Positions 11,685 to 19,627 of a stretch of DNA of 64,000 bases are shown piece after piece. Both the position numbers and the translations under genes were made by a program. Within the stretch, counting starts at the first letter, position 1. Every line of letters starts with the position of its first letter. Source of the stretch: Pseudomonadales bacterium (GTDB lineage: Bacteria > Pseudomonadota > Gammaproteobacteria > Pseudomonadales > Azotimanducaceae); contig JAHRVQ010000060.1 in assembly GCA_019090615.1 (NCBI GenBank), forward strand, positions 1 to 64,000, in the 5' to 3' direction. A model generated the notes under the pieces. The model saw only the letters and a program-made list of their open reading frames with translations, was not told the DNA's origin and searched no databases.

Positions 11685-11819
11685 CTATCTATCCTTTTTA
11701 AATATCCAGCTCACAAGGATAGTGATGTTGGTCGCGGTTAACAACTATTGGCTCATTTGCATTTTATTTTTCGACTCATGACTACCACCAATCGTTGACG
11801 GTAAAACCAGATGCTTTTT

Positions 11820-11866
11820 ACCCAATTACCCAATTACCCAATTACCCAATTACCCAATTACCCAAT
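11820..11866. repeat. 8-bp microsatellite, nearly six copies
   Basis: ACCCAATT is repeated five full times plus seven bases with no mismatch. It lies in the 341-base gap between the divergent gloA and coiled-coil genes, about 47 bases upstream of the predicted promoter of the latter. Copy number of such repeats changes by slippage. Confidence 0.97.
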
Positions 11867-11940: not shown

Positions 11941-12025
11941 TAATAGAAGCCGTGGCGAATTTTTGACGCTGGGATTTGGCAGGACGCTTAAGCGCATTTG
12001 AGCCGCTGTCATTTATTTGGGTAAT

Positions 12026-15000
12026 ATGAGCATGGATAACGCTACCATGGATGATGCAACGAAAAAAAAACTACCAAAATCACGCAAAGCGCTTGAATAT
12101 AGGGTCTATTGGCTAGAACGCAAGCTGGCTTTTCTAAACACGACCAGCAAAAGAGACGTCAATAGCCAGAATATTGAACGTCTACCCGCCTCGCCTATTA
12201 AAGAACTCATGCACCTTAACAATGAGTTCCAACGGGCCAATGAGCAGGCCAATGCATTAAAAGACCTAACCCAGGAAATCAATCAGGAAGCGTTGCAAAT
12301 AAATGAACGCAGTGAGCAATTACAGGAAGTCAGCCTGAGTAAAATAACTGATGCTGAACGATTAAACCGCCAGACTAGACGCCTGCATAAAACCACCCGC
12401 AATATTAATAACAATACGCTTCAAAAACAGGAGCAGGCGCGTAAAATTAATGATGCTGCCAGAGCAACAACTGCCCAGAATGAAGCGCAGATCAACGAAT
12501 CCATACACCTTAATAAACTTACCCGTGCCCAGCACCTGGCAACAGATAAGTTGAATCAAAAAACCCGTGGACTCAATCTTCAGGTTGAAGAAAATATCAA
12601 CGAAGGTCTTCAGCTAAACGATAAACTAGATAAACAACAACGGGAAAGTCTTCGGGTTAACGAATACTCCGTCAAATTACAACAGGAACTTGAGGCAGTT
12701 AAACAACAACTTGCCCTGTTAAACAATCAATCAGGCGATTTTCAACAACAGGCCATTGAAAAAGTCAGCCGCCTTGAAGCCCTTGATGATTCTTGCCTTG
12801 CAGCCCTGGCAGAAGCACAGCAAAGCACCGCGCAGGCCAACCAACAGTATCAGGTTGTAGAAGCGCAATTAATACAAACCAGTCAGCTAAATCAGCTATC
12901 TGAAAATAACCATCAAAAATTTGCGGTACTGCATAACGAGGCCAATACCTCATTAATTAATCATCAGCAGCAAAATAAATCTATGCAAGAACAGTTGCTC
13001 GATAATGCGGTACAGCTTGAAGCAAAAACCATTGAACAGATTGAACAACACCAGCAAGCCACAAGCCTTGGCATAAAGGACCAACAAGATCGTGCCTCAA
13101 TCGAGCTATCAGCTGCATTAACAGACCAGTCCCAACGTCTGGATGAAAGCCTTGTTGCTATCCAGACTGAAACAGAAAGTCTGCGTAAGCGTTGCGACCA
13201 GGATATTACCCAACGTAATGATGAAGTGAGTCAGCAGCTTAGCGACACGCTTGAGTTTTCAGAAAATCTAACCGCTGAACTGGTGACCCAAAGTGAACAA
13301 AAATTCACTGCATTAGCGCAAAAAAATACCGACATAACCACGGCAGCGGTGGCCAATTTTGACCAGACCGCTGCGCAAATAACAGCTTCACATCAACAAC
13401 GGCTGGAAACAGAGGCGCTTCAATCTAATCAGCAAATTGAAACTTATCAACATCAATTTACCCAGCAGCTTGAACAACATCAAACTCAGGCCGACCAACA
13501 ACTAGCAGAAATTGAACAATGTAATAGGGCCTCCAGCGAATTTCATCAGCAACATCAATCCCGATCAAACCGTCACCTGGCGGCCCAACAGAACCAATAT
13601 CATCAGCAACTTGAAGAATTTGAAACTTTTTCAGGCCTGCTACTTGATGAGCATCAAACTAATTCCATTCAGCAACTTGAACAGTTGCAGTCTCGATATG
13701 CAATACAACATGCAGAAAATCAGTTGCGTACCAGAGAACAACACAGTGTCGCCGAAAAAAAATCGAACCAGCTGCTCGAAAAAAGCCAGTCTAGTACCGA
13801 CCGGTTACTTAAAGAACAGCGACAATTAAGTCATACCCAGTTAACCCAACAGCAAACTCAAACCGATACAGTTATTGCCCAATTTAAATCCCAGTCATCT
13901 GATCAGCTGGTTACACAACAGCAAAATGCTAGTCGACAGCTAGCAGAACAACTCAACAAATCAGACCTGCAACTGGACCAGCAACTCAATAGGGCCGATC
14001 AGCAATATAGCGAGCAACAACTAAAATCTATTCATCAACTACAGGATATTCAATCTACCAACCTTCAACAAATTGATGCATTCGAAACAAAAACTACCAC
14101 CTTAATTGAAGCTCAGGGCAATAAATTCACCCAACAGCAGTCTGCTTTTGAGGCAACCTCCGCAACCGCCCTTGAGGAATTTTCAAATGCGGCGTCAATA
14201 CAGGTGTCGGAGTTTGAAGTACATTCCTCAACTAGCCTGAAAAGGTCTGAGGCGACCATCGATCTACTTTCTGAGCGGATCACAGCAGATGTACATAAGA
14301 GTAAAGGTTTTCTTGAGCATACCGCCGCAGTCAACCATGACTCCCGTAAAATTGTTGCCGAATCTACTTTGCTTAATGGCATAAGCACCGATCTACATCA
14401 ACAATGTGATAATGCACTAAAAGCTATTGATACGGTGCTTGCATCAATAACGAATACGGAACAAAAATTATATCGTCAGTCGGATGCACTGAAGAATCAA
14501 ACCCTGCTGATTAATGATGCTAGCCTGAGCTTACAAACATCCGGTTCAGAAATTAATTCACAATCTTTGAAAATTCAGCAAGATAGTGTAACTACCCAGG
14601 AACTTTCACAGGATATTAACAATCATTCTTTGGCACTGCATGAAGAAACACGGGATCTAAACCTTCAATTTACCCGTTTAAACCAGGACAACAGTAGCTT
14701 AGTTCAACAACTTAAAGAGCTAAAGTACACCCTCGCAGAACAGGCCACTCGCTGTGACCAACAAATAGAATTAAGCCAGCAATTCATCCAGTCTGGCGAA
14801 CAATCAAGCCTGATCTGTAAAGACCTGAATGACCAGTCTTCAAGACTTAACCAGGAAACCATAGATACCCTCAAGGCGGCAAAAACAGCCATAAAAGACA
14901 CAGAACAATCGAATCAGTCTTCATTAAATTTACTGCAGGAAATCACCACCACACAAAACAAACTAGAGCAGTTAGAACACAACCTTGAACAATCCAACAA

Positions 15001-17278
15001 AATCGCCCTCAGCACAACGGCTGAAGCCAAAGAAGTAATCTTACATTCAAAACAAGCACAGTCCCGACTTGGGGTTTCCACCACGGAAATACAAACACTG
15101 ACGGAAAATGCACAGCAGGAATTTGAACGACTCCAGGCATTAAGAAAACAGGCCGTTGATGAAACCGACAAATCCATTGCGGCGCAGGATGAACTGCGCC
15201 TCTGTATGGCTGAATCGCGGCAAATTAATGATGATTTTATGCGCGGACTTGAGGCAACTACTGAGGCACATAATAAAACCGAAACCAATATCCAGGCTTT
15301 GTATCAGGAATCAGAACGTCTGCAAGCAGAAATTTCAGACATGCTCAATCTTAAAACTGGCGTCAAAGAATTTCAGGAAAATATTAACCATTGCCAACAG
15401 CGCCTGGATCAATATGCTGAAACACTATCCAATCATCAACAAGGCACCCAGGACCATGCCGAACGGTTAAACGACTACCAGGATAGAATCGAGCATTATC
15501 AAGGCGATATTCAAAAATATCGCGACTCAATGAGTCAGTTTGAATCCAAAGCAAGACGGCTGGAAACTAACTTTACCGACCAGGAACTGCGCATAAAAGA
15601 CCTCGAGGCTACACAGCCTGATGATTATGCTGACCGCATTAATAGTTATCTTGATAAAATGCGTATTTTAGAAAGTCAGATACGTTCTGATGTGATTAAC
15701 AAGCATAATCAACTGGATGAAAATATATCGGTATTACGCGGTTCTCTGGAAATCACAGTAGATAATCTTGGCAATCAGCTAATGGAGCGTATAGGTCACA
15801 AACTTGACCAGAAAAACGAAGTAACTGAGGAGAAAATTCGCACCACCAAACGCATTGTTAAAACCCTTAATATGGACTTTGAGGAACTTCGGCTAAACCT
15901 GAATGCCGAAATAACCACTTTACGGGAAGAAAACAAGGAAATCAGGAATCAAAATATAGAGTTACAGCATCAAAGTCACAATCTGCAAAAAGAAAACCGG
16001 CATGACCTGGCGGACTATAAAACCGAACTCGATGATATCAAACACCAGTTGCAAAACTACCAGGATCTACTCCGCGAACAAATAGACAATGGACAGGGTA
16101 CAGAGCTAAGTGACCGCCTTTCAACACTCGAAGCCAATACCAAAATACAACAACGAATACTCGACAAACATGAATCATTTAAGACGGAAATCAGAGAGCA
16201 ACTAAATGATAAGCAGCACGAAGATGAATTAACCGCCATGGTTGGCAAGTTTGGTCGCAACCTGGAGGACTCGCTAGATAACAACAGAGTTTTGCAAACA
16301 TCGATTGAGAATGCAGAACAATCCAACCGCGAATTATCTGATTGTAACGCTCAATTACAAAAACAGATGCAAACCGCACAAACCGCTAGTGACGAAAAAC
16401 TTCAGCAATACGCGGCGCGCATGAATCGGTTAGAAGAGCGAGAAAAAGACTTCCAGAAAACCATTACTTCCTTTCAAACCAAAGAGTCTGATACCAATGA
16501 AACGCTACAACAAATGCGCCTTGCGATGCGAGATTCCACCAAGGCAATGCGAGACACACAAATAACTTTAGAAAGGTTTCGCCCTACCAACGACCAGCCG
16601 AAGGGTTGGGTAGAAAAATCAAAACAGGCGGCAGTCACCTCAATGGTGGCGATACTCTTCACCGGCCTGACAATATTTGGCTTTGAAGGAGTGAATGCCT
16701 CCGTCAATGTAAATTCAGTAGCAGCCAACCCCTACCAACAAAATGCCTTCATATTCCCTGAACTAACACCATCAACGAACAGTTCAGGTGGTTCAACGCA
16801 GCCGCTATCAAAAACAATGTCCCAATCAAGGATGCAGGCCAATAACAGTATTAGACAGCATGGTGAATTTGCATGGCCAGTAAACTTTGGCATTGTCGAT
16901 CCTAGTGCAATTAAATATCAGTCGCATAATCGTGGCATTAGTATATCCGCAGAGTTCGGCGACCCGGTAGTTGCTGTTAATGATGGCACAGTAGTGTATA
17001 GCGCCAATGAGATACGCGGTTATGGTAATGTCATTGTTATCCAGCATGATGAAAATTTAGTTTCGGTGTACGCAAATAATCAATTTAATTACGTCCAGCC
17101 TGGCGATAAGGTCAAACGAGGACAACTTATCGGAGATATTGGTAAGCTCTTCAATCAAGATGAAGCTGGGCTATATTTCGAAATACGGTATATGGGAACG
17201 CCAGAAGACCCTTTTAATTACCTCAGCCAAAACACCCACGCTCAGATTAGCAGCGCCGGTCAAGCTAACAATACCTGA
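12026..17278 (+). CDS. Giant coiled-coil membrane protein with degenerate LytM (M23) domain
   Basis: A 1750-residue protein. Residues about 10-45 are basic; about 55-1500 are almost continuous coiled coil, very rich in Gln, Glu, Asn and Ser. Residues 513-743 show 21 uninterrupted 11-residue repeats; flanking parts follow heptads with recurring LN/IN pairs every 7 or 14 residues. A single hydrophobic span lies at about 1535-1554, preceded by Lys residues (KSKQ) and followed by an acidic/neutral stretch, so the coil should be cytoplasmic and the C-terminus periplasmic. Residues 1613-1740 are a LytM/M23 domain in which the zinc ligands are lost: NRGISI for HxGxD, YANN for YAH, GLYFEIR for HLHFE. 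Degenerate LytM domains (EnvC, NlpD) activate cell-wall amidases. ATG 12026 is chosen over TTG 12017. No described protein with this layout is known to me. Confidence 0.85.
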   Translation: MSMDNATMDDATKKKLPKSRKALEYRVYWLERKLAFLNTTSKRDVNSQNIERLPASPIKELMHLNNEFQRANEQANALKDLTQEINQEALQINERSEQLQEVSLSKITDAERLNRQTRRLHKTTRNINNNTLQKQEQARKINDAARATTAQNEAQINESIHLNKLTRAQHLATDKLNQKTRGLNLQVEENINEGLQLNDKLDKQQRESLRVNEYSVKLQQELEAVKQQLALLNNQSGDFQQQAIEKVSRLEALDDSCLAALAEAQQSTAQANQQYQVVEAQLIQTSQLNQLSENNHQKFAVLHNEANTSLINHQQQNKSMQEQLLDNAVQLEAKTIEQIEQHQQATSLGIKDQQDRASIELSAALTDQSQRLDESLVAIQTETESLRKRCDQDITQRNDEVSQQLSDTLEFSENLTAELVTQSEQKFTALAQKNTDITTAAVANFDQTAAQITASHQQRLETEALQSNQQIETYQHQFTQQLEQHQTQADQQLAEIEQCNRASSEFHQQHQSRSNRHLAAQQNQYHQQLEEFETFSGLLLDEHQTNSIQQLEQLQSRYAIQHAENQLRTREQHSVAEKKSNQLLEKSQSSTDRLLKEQRQLSHTQLTQQQTQTDTVIAQFKSQSSDQLVTQQQNASRQLAEQLNKSDLQLDQQLNRADQQYSEQQLKSIHQLQDIQSTNLQQIDAFETKTTTLIEAQGNKFTQQQSAFEATSATALEEFSNAASIQVSEFEVHSSTSLKRSEATIDLLSERITADVHKSKGFLEHTAAVNHDSRKIVAESTLLNGISTDLHQQCDNALKAIDTVLASITNTEQKLYRQSDALKNQTLLINDASLSLQTSGSEINSQSLKIQQDSVTTQELSQDINNHSLALHEETRDLNLQFTRLNQDNSSLVQQLKELKYTLAEQATRCDQQIELSQQFIQSGEQSSLICKDLNDQSSRLNQETIDTLKAAKTAIKDTEQSNQSSLNLLQEITTTQNKLEQLEHNLEQSNKIALSTTAEAKEVILHSKQAQSRLGVSTTEIQTLTENAQQEFERLQALRKQAVDETDKSIAAQDELRLCMAESRQINDDFMRGLEATTEAHNKTETNIQALYQESERLQAEISDMLNLKTGVKEFQENINHCQQRLDQYAETLSNHQQGTQDHAERLNDYQDRIEHYQGDIQKYRDSMSQFESKARRLETNFTDQELRIKDLEATQPDDYADRINSYLDKMRILESQIRSDVINKHNQLDENISVLRGSLEITVDNLGNQLMERIGHKLDQKNEVTEEKIRTTKRIVKTLNMDFEELRLNLNAEITTLREENKEIRNQNIELQHQSHNLQKENRHDLADYKTELDDIKHQLQNYQDLLREQIDNGQGTELSDRLSTLEANTKIQQRILDKHESFKTEIREQLNDKQHEDELTAMVGKFGRNLEDSLDNNRVLQTSIENAEQSNRELSDCNAQLQKQMQTAQTASDEKLQQYAARMNRLEEREKDFQKTITSFQTKESDTNETLQQMRLAMRDSTKAMRDTQITLERFRPTNDQPKGWVEKSKQAAVTSMVAILFTGLTIFGFEGVNASVNVNSVAANPYQQNAFIFPELTPSTNSSGGSTQPLSKTMSQSRMQANNSIRQHGEFAWPVNFGIVDPSAIKYQSHNRGISISAEFGDPVVAVNDGTVVYSANEIRGYGNVIVIQHDENLVSVYANNQFNYVQPGDKVKRGQLIGDIGKLFNQDEAGLYFEIRYMGTPEDPFNYLSQNTHAQISSAGQANNT
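13562..14254 (+). repeat. Coding region for 21 consecutive hendecad (11-residue) repeats
   Basis: In register, position 6 of each 11-residue unit is almost always hydrophobic or His/Gln (L, I, V, Y) and position 2 is usually Ser, Thr or Ala: RSNRHLAAQQN, QYHQQLEEFET, ... KSNQLLEKSQS, STDRLLKEQRQ, ... HSSTSLKRSEA. DNA copies are diverged, so this is an old protein repeat rather than a recent DNA duplication. At least three more units precede it in a shifted register. Confidence 0.85.
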
Positions 17279-17323: not shown

Positions 17324-19627
17324 TTATGGTGCCTCAAATCCACCAACAAATACCGGGCTACTCCATGCCCTTGCATCATCTAATTGTGTTACGCGAATAT
17401 AGTAGTAGTCTCCAGCCACCCGTGGGGTCTTATCAACGAACTCAAACTCAAGCTGCGATGCAGCAGCCGAGTTTACCATTTCAACACTAATTTCATCCGC
17501 ATAGCCCTTGATGCGAATTTTTCGATCTACTCGCTGTTGTCGAACGTCAGATAAATTAATCAATTGTCGACTAGCCGGTATAGCAGTCGACGACCGCCTT
17601 AAAGGGGTGCTGTCTTCATCTTCGTGCCCTGCTCTTAAATTTATTTCGAAAATTGCGTTTTCGTTAACTGCGGCTAAATCTAGTAGAAAGCTACTTGAGG
17701 TGCCCCGTGTCCAGGTAATGAAATCGACCCGATTCGATGTCTTTGGGTTAACAGCGATAGCCCGTTGCCGACCTGGCCTCATAGAAAGGGGGTTAACCGT
17801 TATTATCTCGGCGTCAGTTACTTTGAAATAACCTAGCCATTCTCGCCCATTGCGGGGCAAGTCTCGTTGCGCTTTATACGGCCTACTCTGTGACTTAAAA
17901 GACACCATTATAGTGCCGCTGTCACTATCCGCAGCATTCTCGATAGTATCAATCACAACGCCATTTTTAAGCAGTTCTATACGGTGAATAGCGGCTGTAC
18001 CAGAAACCAGGCCACGTACTATGATTGGTTCTTTTTCGATTGGTTCTTTTGCGATTGGTTCTTTTGTGACTGTTGTTTTTGTGACTGTTTTTTTACTGCT
18101 AAGGGGCTTACCAACTCCTGTTGCATCAACTTGCACACGCAACAGGATTTTTTCTCCCGTGGTGATGTATGTACTGCCACGATGCAGGGCCGCCAGCACC
18201 GACTCGTTTGGCTCAACAATTAATGCTGTCAAAGCAGTGCTGTAGTGCCCTTCGGTAGGGTCCAGATGACTATGTGCCGACGCAGTAAAACCAAGTCGGT
18301 AGCCTCTACTTAGCAGCTTGTTGGCAAACCATTCAAAATGAGAATCGCCGCTGATCAGTTCAACCAGACGTGTAAGCTGGTTATCAATAAATCTGTCATC
18401 AACCGGCGGCTCAGGCAGCGCCACCATGATCGTGTCAAAAATGCTACGGGATTTTGTATTAGCTTCGGCCAATCCCCTAACCAGGCTCGTTTGCTGGCTG
18501 GCGGTTGAAATTTGCCGGTCTGTAATTACCTGATGTGCGCCGCCTGATTGCAACGGTTGAGTCCAGACCCAGGCTTTGGGGCCTACTATTTCAGCATACA
18601 ATTGATCGGTATAGTAACTACCATGCACACTGGTAATTGAAAAATCTAGCGCCGGGTCGGTATTTGCTGCGGGACTTAATCCATCACCAAGCCGCGTATG
18701 GTGTCGACTATTGCCCCATAAAATACGCTGCTCAGCTGCGTCTACCCAAAATGGATTTGAACTAGCAGTGATTCCTCCGCCGGAGGATTTCACGCTAATA
18801 GTATGCTTACCTTCAACATCGAATTGAAGGTTATTTATTACATGATAATTTTCCAGCGAGGACTCAATTCTACTATGGAAGGTACCGTCAACCAGAATAT
18901 CAAAAGATGGTGTTGATCCATTGGCAAGGTTGCCAAATTGATCTTTGAGGAGTACGCGTGTTTTAAAAGGTTGGCTAGTTTTGATCAGGCTCGGTACTAG
19001 CACTTCAGCCAGCGCAACTTTGCCAGCTTTTATATCCATAGTATCTGCCGGAACAGGGAAAAAACCGCCATCGCTGTGTTGTTTAAAATAAACGCCTGGT
19101 TGAAATTCTTGCTCGGCCCTGGTGGGTAATTGCAGATTTACATATTCAACCGTAACACTGTCGCCTGCTTTGAGTGAGCCCCGCACTAATGAAAAAAGCA
19201 GTTGCGGCTTTGCTCGCTTAAGGCCGCCCAATATACCCTTGCTGCGGTAAGGTTTTGCAGTCCATTCCACGTCTGTCGCGTCAGCCGAGATACGCACAAA
19301 GTTTGCAGCGGTTGAGTCTTGGGTTTGAAACACAAAAGTATGCTGCCAATGTTTTGCTACAAGAATGCCGCCGCCAACACTGATATCTGAACCCAGTGTA
19401 ATAACGCGCTTAATATCCACTTCGGCGCCTGCTTGTAACGGTTCATTAACCCATACCGATTTACCTAATTTTTCTGGAAAATCCGTGTGCCAATTTAGCC
19501 ACTGCTGAGCATGCAGATCATCACCGCCGTGATTTAAAGCTGCTACCAGTTCAGGGGGTAAAGGTGCCGCCAGGGACAAATTTACCCAAAAGATCAGACC
19601 TAGAAAGACAATACGTGGCAGTATCAA
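17324..19627 (-). CDS. Exported DUF3604-like protein
   Basis: A 767-residue secreted or periplasmic protein. Residues 1-20 (MILPRIVFLGLIFWVNLSLA) form a signal peptide cut before APLPPEL. A beta-rich N-terminal half (about 45-300) includes an Ig-like passage, KTRVLLKDQFGNLANGSTPS. From about 305 the sequence WGNSRHHTRLGDG resembles the metal-binding opening of DUF3604 proteins (WGDLHxHTxxSDG), with several expected residues changed. A linker near residue 520-545 consists of five-residue repeats (TKEPI/EKEPI) encoded by 15-bp DNA repeats. DUF3604 proteins are related to PHP-type hydrolases and lack a firm function. The start is TTG 19627; no other start fits and an upstream in-frame stop is near. 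The gene converges on the coiled-coil gene, 45 bases apart. Confidence 0.6.
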   Translation of the reverse strand: MILPRIVFLGLIFWVNLSLAAPLPPELVAALNHGGDDLHAQQWLNWHTDFPEKLGKSVWVNEPLQAGAEVDIKRVITLGSDISVGGGILVAKHWQHTFVFQTQDSTAANFVRISADATDVEWTAKPYRSKGILGGLKRAKPQLLFSLVRGSLKAGDSVTVEYVNLQLPTRAEQEFQPGVYFKQHSDGGFFPVPADTMDIKAGKVALAEVLVPSLIKTSQPFKTRVLLKDQFGNLANGSTPSFDILVDGTFHSRIESSLENYHVINNLQFDVEGKHTISVKSSGGGITASSNPFWVDAAEQRILWGNSRHHTRLGDGLSPAANTDPALDFSITSVHGSYYTDQLYAEIVGPKAWVWTQPLQSGGAHQVITDRQISTASQQTSLVRGLAEANTKSRSIFDTIMVALPEPPVDDRFIDNQLTRLVELISGDSHFEWFANKLLSRGYRLGFTASAHSHLDPTEGHYSTALTALIVEPNESVLAALHRGSTYITTGEKILLRVQVDATGVGKPLSSKKTVTKTTVTKEPIAKEPIEKEPIIVRGLVSGTAAIHRIELLKNGVVIDTIENAADSDSGTIMVSFKSQSRPYKAQRDLPRNGREWLGYFKVTDAEIITVNPLSMRPGRQRAIAVNPKTSNRVDFITWTRGTSSSFLLDLAAVNENAIFEINLRAGHEDEDSTPLRRSSTAIPASRQLINLSDVRQQRVDRKIRIKGYADEISVEMVNSAAASQLEFEFVDKTPRVAGDYYYIRVTQLDDARAWSSPVFVGGFEAP
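18023..18097. repeat. 15-bp tandem repeat, five copies, inside a coding region
   Basis: Three near-identical units of GATTGGTTCTTTTGC (18023-18067) are followed by two diverged ones (18068-18097). They encode Lys/Thr/Glu-Pro pentapeptides in the linker of the DUF3604-like protein and preserve frame whatever the copy number. Confidence 0.9.

Follow-up and report, generated by a model that had tools for sequence, protein, structure and literature searches.

Degenerate LytM (dLytM) regulators form a broad class of proteins that keep the LytM fold, have lost catalytic and zinc-binding residues, and bind a wall hydrolase that they activate or coordinate. The known Gram-negative members are periplasmic and are placed by FtsEX, by outer-membrane anchors or by wall binding. 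EnvC of E. coli is secreted and carries, besides its dead LytM domain, a long periplasmic coil that binds FtsX. DipM, NlpD and ActS are exported dead LytM regulators with LysM domains. DipM and EnvC bind their targets through the dead groove (PMC10336132). LytM proteins can also be anchored in the membrane. SpoIIQ of B. subtilis exposes a degenerate LytM domain outside the membrane (PMC3817522) and forms a sporulation channel with SpoIIIAH. LmdC of Hyphomonas and Rhodospirillum is a bitopic, catalytically active M23 protein with a periplasmic coil; its cytoplasmic N-terminus, a tail of 38 residues, binds bactofilin, and the periplasmic M23 protein is thereby recruited by the cytoskeleton (PMC10945521). 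HubP/FimV combine a periplasmic, wall-binding LysM domain and one transmembrane helix with a large acidic cytosolic part made of TPR and acidic repeats (PMC8789113).

The window analysed here, a stretch of 64,000 nucleotides, encodes a giant bitopic protein of 1750 residues (12026..17278, +, from the ATG at 12026), whose layout is shared by its homologues. The frame, already noted in an earlier sequence-only reading, is real and runs uninterrupted to 17278, with 1750 codons from 12026 or 1753 codons from an alternative TTG start at 12017. Another candidate, the ATG at 12047, matches the start position of a homologue from the same genus (G004) and, on this comparison, may be the true start of the gene. 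No promoter or terminator match was obtained in the upstream gap. This gap contains a perfect 8-bp tandem repeat, TTACCCAA, in 6.1 copies (window 11818-11866), which was not present in the fetched loci of other genomes. The repeat could be prone to slippage and thereby affect expression.

A hydropathy scan of the first 70 residues revealed neither a signal peptide nor a hydrophobic segment, with a 12-residue maximum of 0.42 compared to 2.4 in the signal sequences of EnvC and NlpD from the same genome. A single transmembrane segment was found at residues 1535-1553 (16628..16684, +), with a mean KD hydropathy of 1.95, while all other 19-residue windows of the protein stayed below 1.2; the predicted helix covers residues 1528-1548. 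Three lysines occur in the 15 residues preceding the segment, and neither Lys nor Arg in the 15 residues following it. The earlier claims of a missing signal peptide and of one span at about 1535-1554 with Lys on its N-side thus hold, and no signal peptide or upstream start that would put the coil outside appeared. Among the seven giant proteins described below, Lys and Arg are in excess on the N-side of the segment in six, and the net charge is more positive on that side in all seven, which strongly supports an N-in charge pattern; some short forms show it less clearly. These charges are consistent with an N-in/C-out orientation of the giants, which is also preferred because the LytM domain should lie beyond the inner membrane. 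They likewise support the proposed location of the coil on the cytoplasmic side. In EnvC, by contrast, the coil is periplasmic, whereas the giant lacks a signal peptide and its coil precedes an internal transmembrane segment.

Peptidase_M23 was the sole domain detected in a Pfam scan (residues 1635-1729, E 2.5e-24). It lies within a degenerate LytM domain at residues 1614-1735 (16865..17230, +), which is defined by the Pfam match, the predicted fold and the replaced catalytic and zinc positions. With no other domain and no N-terminal hydrophobic segment, the giant differs from the exported, LysM-containing DipM, NlpD and ActS. Compared with an intact M23 protein encoded by this genome, the HxxxD pair is replaced by N1635/S1639, the His of YxH by N1684, and the HxH pair by G1715/Y1717. 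The statement that all zinc ligands are replaced is therefore correct for the window protein but not for the whole family, since the close homologues G004 and G825 retain the first His. None of the close homologues has an intact zinc site, and the Asp and both HxH positions are missing in 14 of 14 family members, while the NlpDs tested mostly retain an Asp and a His lost in the giant. AlphaFold2, run on a 59-sequence alignment, predicted a LytM domain with a pLDDT of 94-98, which strongly supports the dead LytM fold. Foldseek ranked the LytM domain of DipM first, followed by that of EnvC (8c0j, with AmiB; 4bh5, alone), and sequence profiles agreed on this likeness; the nearest curated families by profile were the amidase activators ActS and NlpD (NCBIfam). 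The comparison with EnvC and NlpD suggested earlier thus returned a confident LytM fold, nearest to DipM and EnvC. On the other hand, contrasting the protein with EnvC and NlpD alone overlooks the membrane-anchored SpoIIQ (PMC3817522) and LmdC (PMC10945521).

Y1717 and R1721 correspond to Y401 and R405 in the LYFEIR segment of EnvC, which are among the residues discussed for amidase activation (PMC10336132). Both are present in 14 of 14 members; Y401 and R405 are also common in the EnvCs tested, and R405 in the NlpDs tested. EnvC Y350, V353 and V355 are exactly retained in the window protein, and the position of K321 is occupied by Arg. V324, however, is replaced in all giants, and the positions of K321 and Y350 are variable across the family. 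Given the changes at V324 and K321, amidase binding is not readable from the sequence, and by analogy with DipM the targets could be hydrolases other than the amidase.

When the first 352 residues were used as query against 391 genomes of the order, only the window's own genome was recovered, and relatives were obtained with the LytM domain instead. Counting the window protein, seven giants were found, the other six having the same layout; they belong to three families of one order, which is Pseudomonadales according to the named genomes. A search of 58 relatives yielded G004, with 42% identity across the coil, and G057 from another family; G094, G098 and G153 came from the 391 genomes of the order, and G825, from another genus, from 191 genomes of the window's family. 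No additional member was detected at E 1e-36 in 350 genomes across the class. Three giants are placed in the metagenome-assembled genomes (MAGs) NORP299, NORP220 (both Pseudomonadales) and NORP74 (Gammaproteobacteria), NORP being a label used for subseafloor MAGs from North Pond (PMC9426424). In addition, short bitopic forms with a dead LytM domain occur in seven genomes from one genus of a fourth family, so that, across the genomes searched, the layout is seen in seven giants, the window protein included, and a bitopic arrangement in seven short relatives. Whereas the giants have 1057-1583 residues ahead of the transmembrane segment (the N-terminus of G094 is incomplete), the short forms have 70-209, which are upper bounds counted from the open frame. 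SpoIIQ is likewise bitopic with a short inside part, a layout also seen in the short forms. The giant itself shares with SpoIIQ the degenerate LytM domain outside the membrane but carries the giant coil that SpoIIQ lacks, and its profile similarity to SpoIIQ is weaker than to EnvC or DipM. The short forms (L044 4337-5053, L136-L141) also have a strongly conserved juxtamembrane sequence, FLMGLNNRVxxxDKR...IGYKEL.

Several loci show irregularities. One in-frame stop interrupts the G057 coil in its middle part (L038 6120-6122), with the frame intact on both sides; it is either an assembly error or real. The frame of G094 is broken and includes N stretches. In G098, the LytM domain of the giant is present a second time, as a partial copy at a contig end (G098:C316:1-228). 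The stop in G057 and the broken frame of G094 would fit a decaying gene, or an assembly chimera in which a coil gene was accidentally fused to a LytM gene. We consider this extremely improbable, as the layout is repeated in seven genomes of three families and is intact in the window, G004, G825 and G098; for the window gene, the independent homologues rule it out.

In a maximum-likelihood tree, the LytM domains of all 14 members formed one clade (support 99/97), and the NlpD (98/93) and EnvC (99/96) groups were both apart from it. This strongly supports a separate family, which stands beside EnvC as its sister group; one row of the EnvC set, L050 (270 residues), stands alone. EnvC thus resembles the giant in its tree position, in the fold of its dead LytM domain, in the Tyr and Arg of the LYFEIR segment and in having a long coil in the same chain. 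However, the LytM domain of the giant falls outside the EnvC clade, and the genome encodes an EnvC besides the giant. The short forms group together within the giants; this placing is weakly supported (87/65), so that the coil may have been either gained or lost. The existence of forms without a coil indicates that the coil is dispensable for persistence of the LytM domain.

The long helical region at residues 71-1520 (12236..16585, +) is a patchy heptad coiled coil, presumed to be cytoplasmic. The periodicity of hydrophobic residues, averaged over 100-residue windows, peaked at a period of 3.51 with a power of 0.65, compared to a shuffle maximum of 0.36; five other giants tested peaked at 3.50-3.52. 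Taken individually, 11 of 27 windows of 56 residues were significant for heptads, mostly beyond residue 1065 (1065-1512). The region includes a proline-free run of 1140 residues. A Gln-rich variable insert at residues 363-725 (13112..14200, +) is mostly missing in G004 and G825, and residues 421-630 contain 21-24% Gln and give no heptad signal at period 3.5. Of the coiled coil of about 1450 residues described in the sequence-only reading, the heptad signal is clear, but uniformity is not found. The uniform rod of about 200 nm is not supported, being arithmetic for an unbroken helix, whereas the coil is patchy and its length is not conserved. Judged by the uneven heptad signal and the Gln-rich insert, the figures of 1450 residues and 200 nm are therefore an upper bound.

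The same reading had proposed a cytoplasmic filament or sensor rod; as a stiff transmembrane rod, the coil would pass force or a conformational change to the LytM domain, in the way FtsEX acts on EnvC. The membrane-proximal coil is indeed the most regular part (1065-1512) and is predicted as one helix up to about residue 1516. However, AlphaFold2 predicted a break before the transmembrane segment, and the periplasmic linker of about 60 residues between this segment and the LytM domain (residues 1554-1613; 16685..16864, +) is predicted to be disordered (pLDDT 34-42) and shares only 24% and 21% identity with G004 and G825. Together with the non-conserved coil length, this makes the rod unlikely. 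As far as the model goes, signalling through the membrane by such a rod finds no support, and tethering is favoured over force transmission because the linker is predicted to be disordered.

In contrast to the coil, which is mostly 20-50% identical to those of G004 and G825, the N-terminal tip at residues 17-70 (12074..12235, +) shows 70% and 63% identity, respectively. These values are matched by the LytM domain (70% and 64%). Both ends of the protein are hence under constraint, a conclusion that the comparison strongly supports. The tip comprises a short helix, a proline break and the start of a long helix, with AlphaFold2 helices at residues 20-51 and 57-199. It contains the motif RVYWLERKL at residues 26-34 (12101..12127, +). 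Five giants from three families each contain a single copy of the form R[IV]xxLExKL close to the N-terminus, and this form appeared in 0 to 0.03% of trials with shuffled sequences of the first 110 residues; the form containing W is invariant among five aligned giants. Tip conservation and motif, the strongest new fact besides the existence of the family itself, point to the binding of a partner by the N-terminal tip. The short forms carry a segment NNRVxxLDxRL that looks like the tip motif by eye, but an equivalence of the two was not supported (profile comparison probability 0.1%).

In the window, G004 and G825, the giant gene is flanked by a gene for a histidine phosphatase on one side and one for a secreted protein on the other. 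A VOC-type gene accompanies the histidine phosphatase gene in the window and G004, and a TraB-family gene adjoins the secreted-protein gene in G004 and G825; in other families, the neighbours are different genes. The secreted protein (window 17324-19627, -) gave a weak match to CehA/McbA metallohydrolases, and a similar gene is kept beside the giant in two other genomes. Housekeeping neighbours in the window are PutA, the histidine phosphatase, an acyl-CoA dehydrogenase and a sigma factor. This context bears on the reading as a phage or prophage tape-measure protein. Such proteins can share the composition of the giant: long, helical, and including a membrane segment as well as an M23 domain. 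The giant matches phage peptidase families, including a weak match to tape-measure phrog_167 (E 0.0035) that covers the LytM part only. We regard this explanation as barely credible, since the neighbours are housekeeping genes, the neighbourhood is the same in two other genomes, the active site is dead in 14 of 14 members and the clade lies beside EnvC; phage structural genes were not found around the giant at the loci examined. Gene context and dead sites together led us to reject a tape-measure origin.

No amidase or division gene was found beside the giant gene at the loci examined. The genome encodes a single Amidase_3 protein and active M23 proteins; it also has its own EnvC, complete with signal peptide and coil, and a lipoprotein-like NlpD. 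As EnvC and NlpD are already present, the giant would be an additional regulator. A bactofilin gene of the genome lies away from the giant, next to a MepM-like M23 gene (G000:C87:2601-3994; L002, L128), as in described M23-bactofilin systems. The giant resembles LmdC in being a bitopic M23 protein with a predicted cytoplasmic N-terminus; it differs in its dead active site and in the length and placement of its coil.

At about even odds, we take the protein to be a bitopic, catalytically dead LytM regulator with a cytoplasmic oligomeric coil and a partner-binding tip, which activates or positions a hydrolase. We infer that the long helical coil with its conserved tip would oligomerise, and that tip or coil would bind a cytoplasmic partner such as a division or cytoskeletal factor. 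The transmembrane helix and the flexible periplasmic linker would keep the dead LytM domain near the wall, where its groove would bind a cell-wall hydrolase, most likely the only Amidase_3 protein of the genome, and activate or position it. The inside part would determine the site, and perhaps the timing, of wall cutting, and the outside part would act as the switch. That DipM and EnvC, including EnvC bound to AmiB, are the best solved matches counts for an activator, and LmdC is a precedent for recruiting a periplasmic M23 protein through a cytoplasmic tail (PMC10945521); that no amidase or division gene is linked to the giant in an operon counts against it, as do the patchy coil and the narrow distribution. 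Of the previously proposed control of wall hydrolysis across the membrane, the dead LytM domain of the EnvC/DipM-type fold remains and signalling by a rod does not, while the control itself is what we infer here. More tentatively, the giant may represent a new class of wall-hydrolase regulator, a cytoplasmic coiled-coil scaffold whose tip sits on a cytoskeletal, nucleoid or division component and which sets the LytM switch outside, so that wall cutting would be directed straight from the cytoplasm without FtsEX, with coil length grown or lost between conserved ends.

The rival with the most weight, although rather doubtful, is a pole or septum landmark similar to HubP/FimV, in which the LytM domain would be only a localisation module sensing the wall or a periplasmic partner and the coil would collect cytoplasmic proteins. 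Like HubP (PMC8789113), whose periplasmic LysM domain binds the wall and is joined by one transmembrane helix to the rest of the protein, the giant has a large and acidic cytosolic part (net charge about -69), and its tip is as conserved as its LytM domain. SpoIIQ, a landmark protein, also exposes a degenerate LytM domain with a possible interaction interface (PMC3817522). However, the giant has LytM instead of LysM and a coil instead of TPR and acidic repeats, neither LysM nor TPR appeared in the Pfam scan, and the chain order is the reverse of that in HubP. Furthermore, the short forms keep the LytM domain while having hardly any cytoplasmic part.

In the open literature, with subscription papers outside the scope of the search, we found no description of a dead LytM domain combined with a cytoplasmic coiled coil. 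A small family with a giant N-terminal cytoplasmic coil, a transmembrane segment and a dead LytM domain has thus apparently not been described; the LytM switch itself is of a known kind, and the architecture would be new. The natural length series, in which about 70 to 1583 residues precede the membrane, offers test pieces for the role of the cytoplasmic part. If the LytM switch is truly tied to a large cytoplasmic coil, the family would provide a one-protein route from the inside of the cell to wall hydrolysis.
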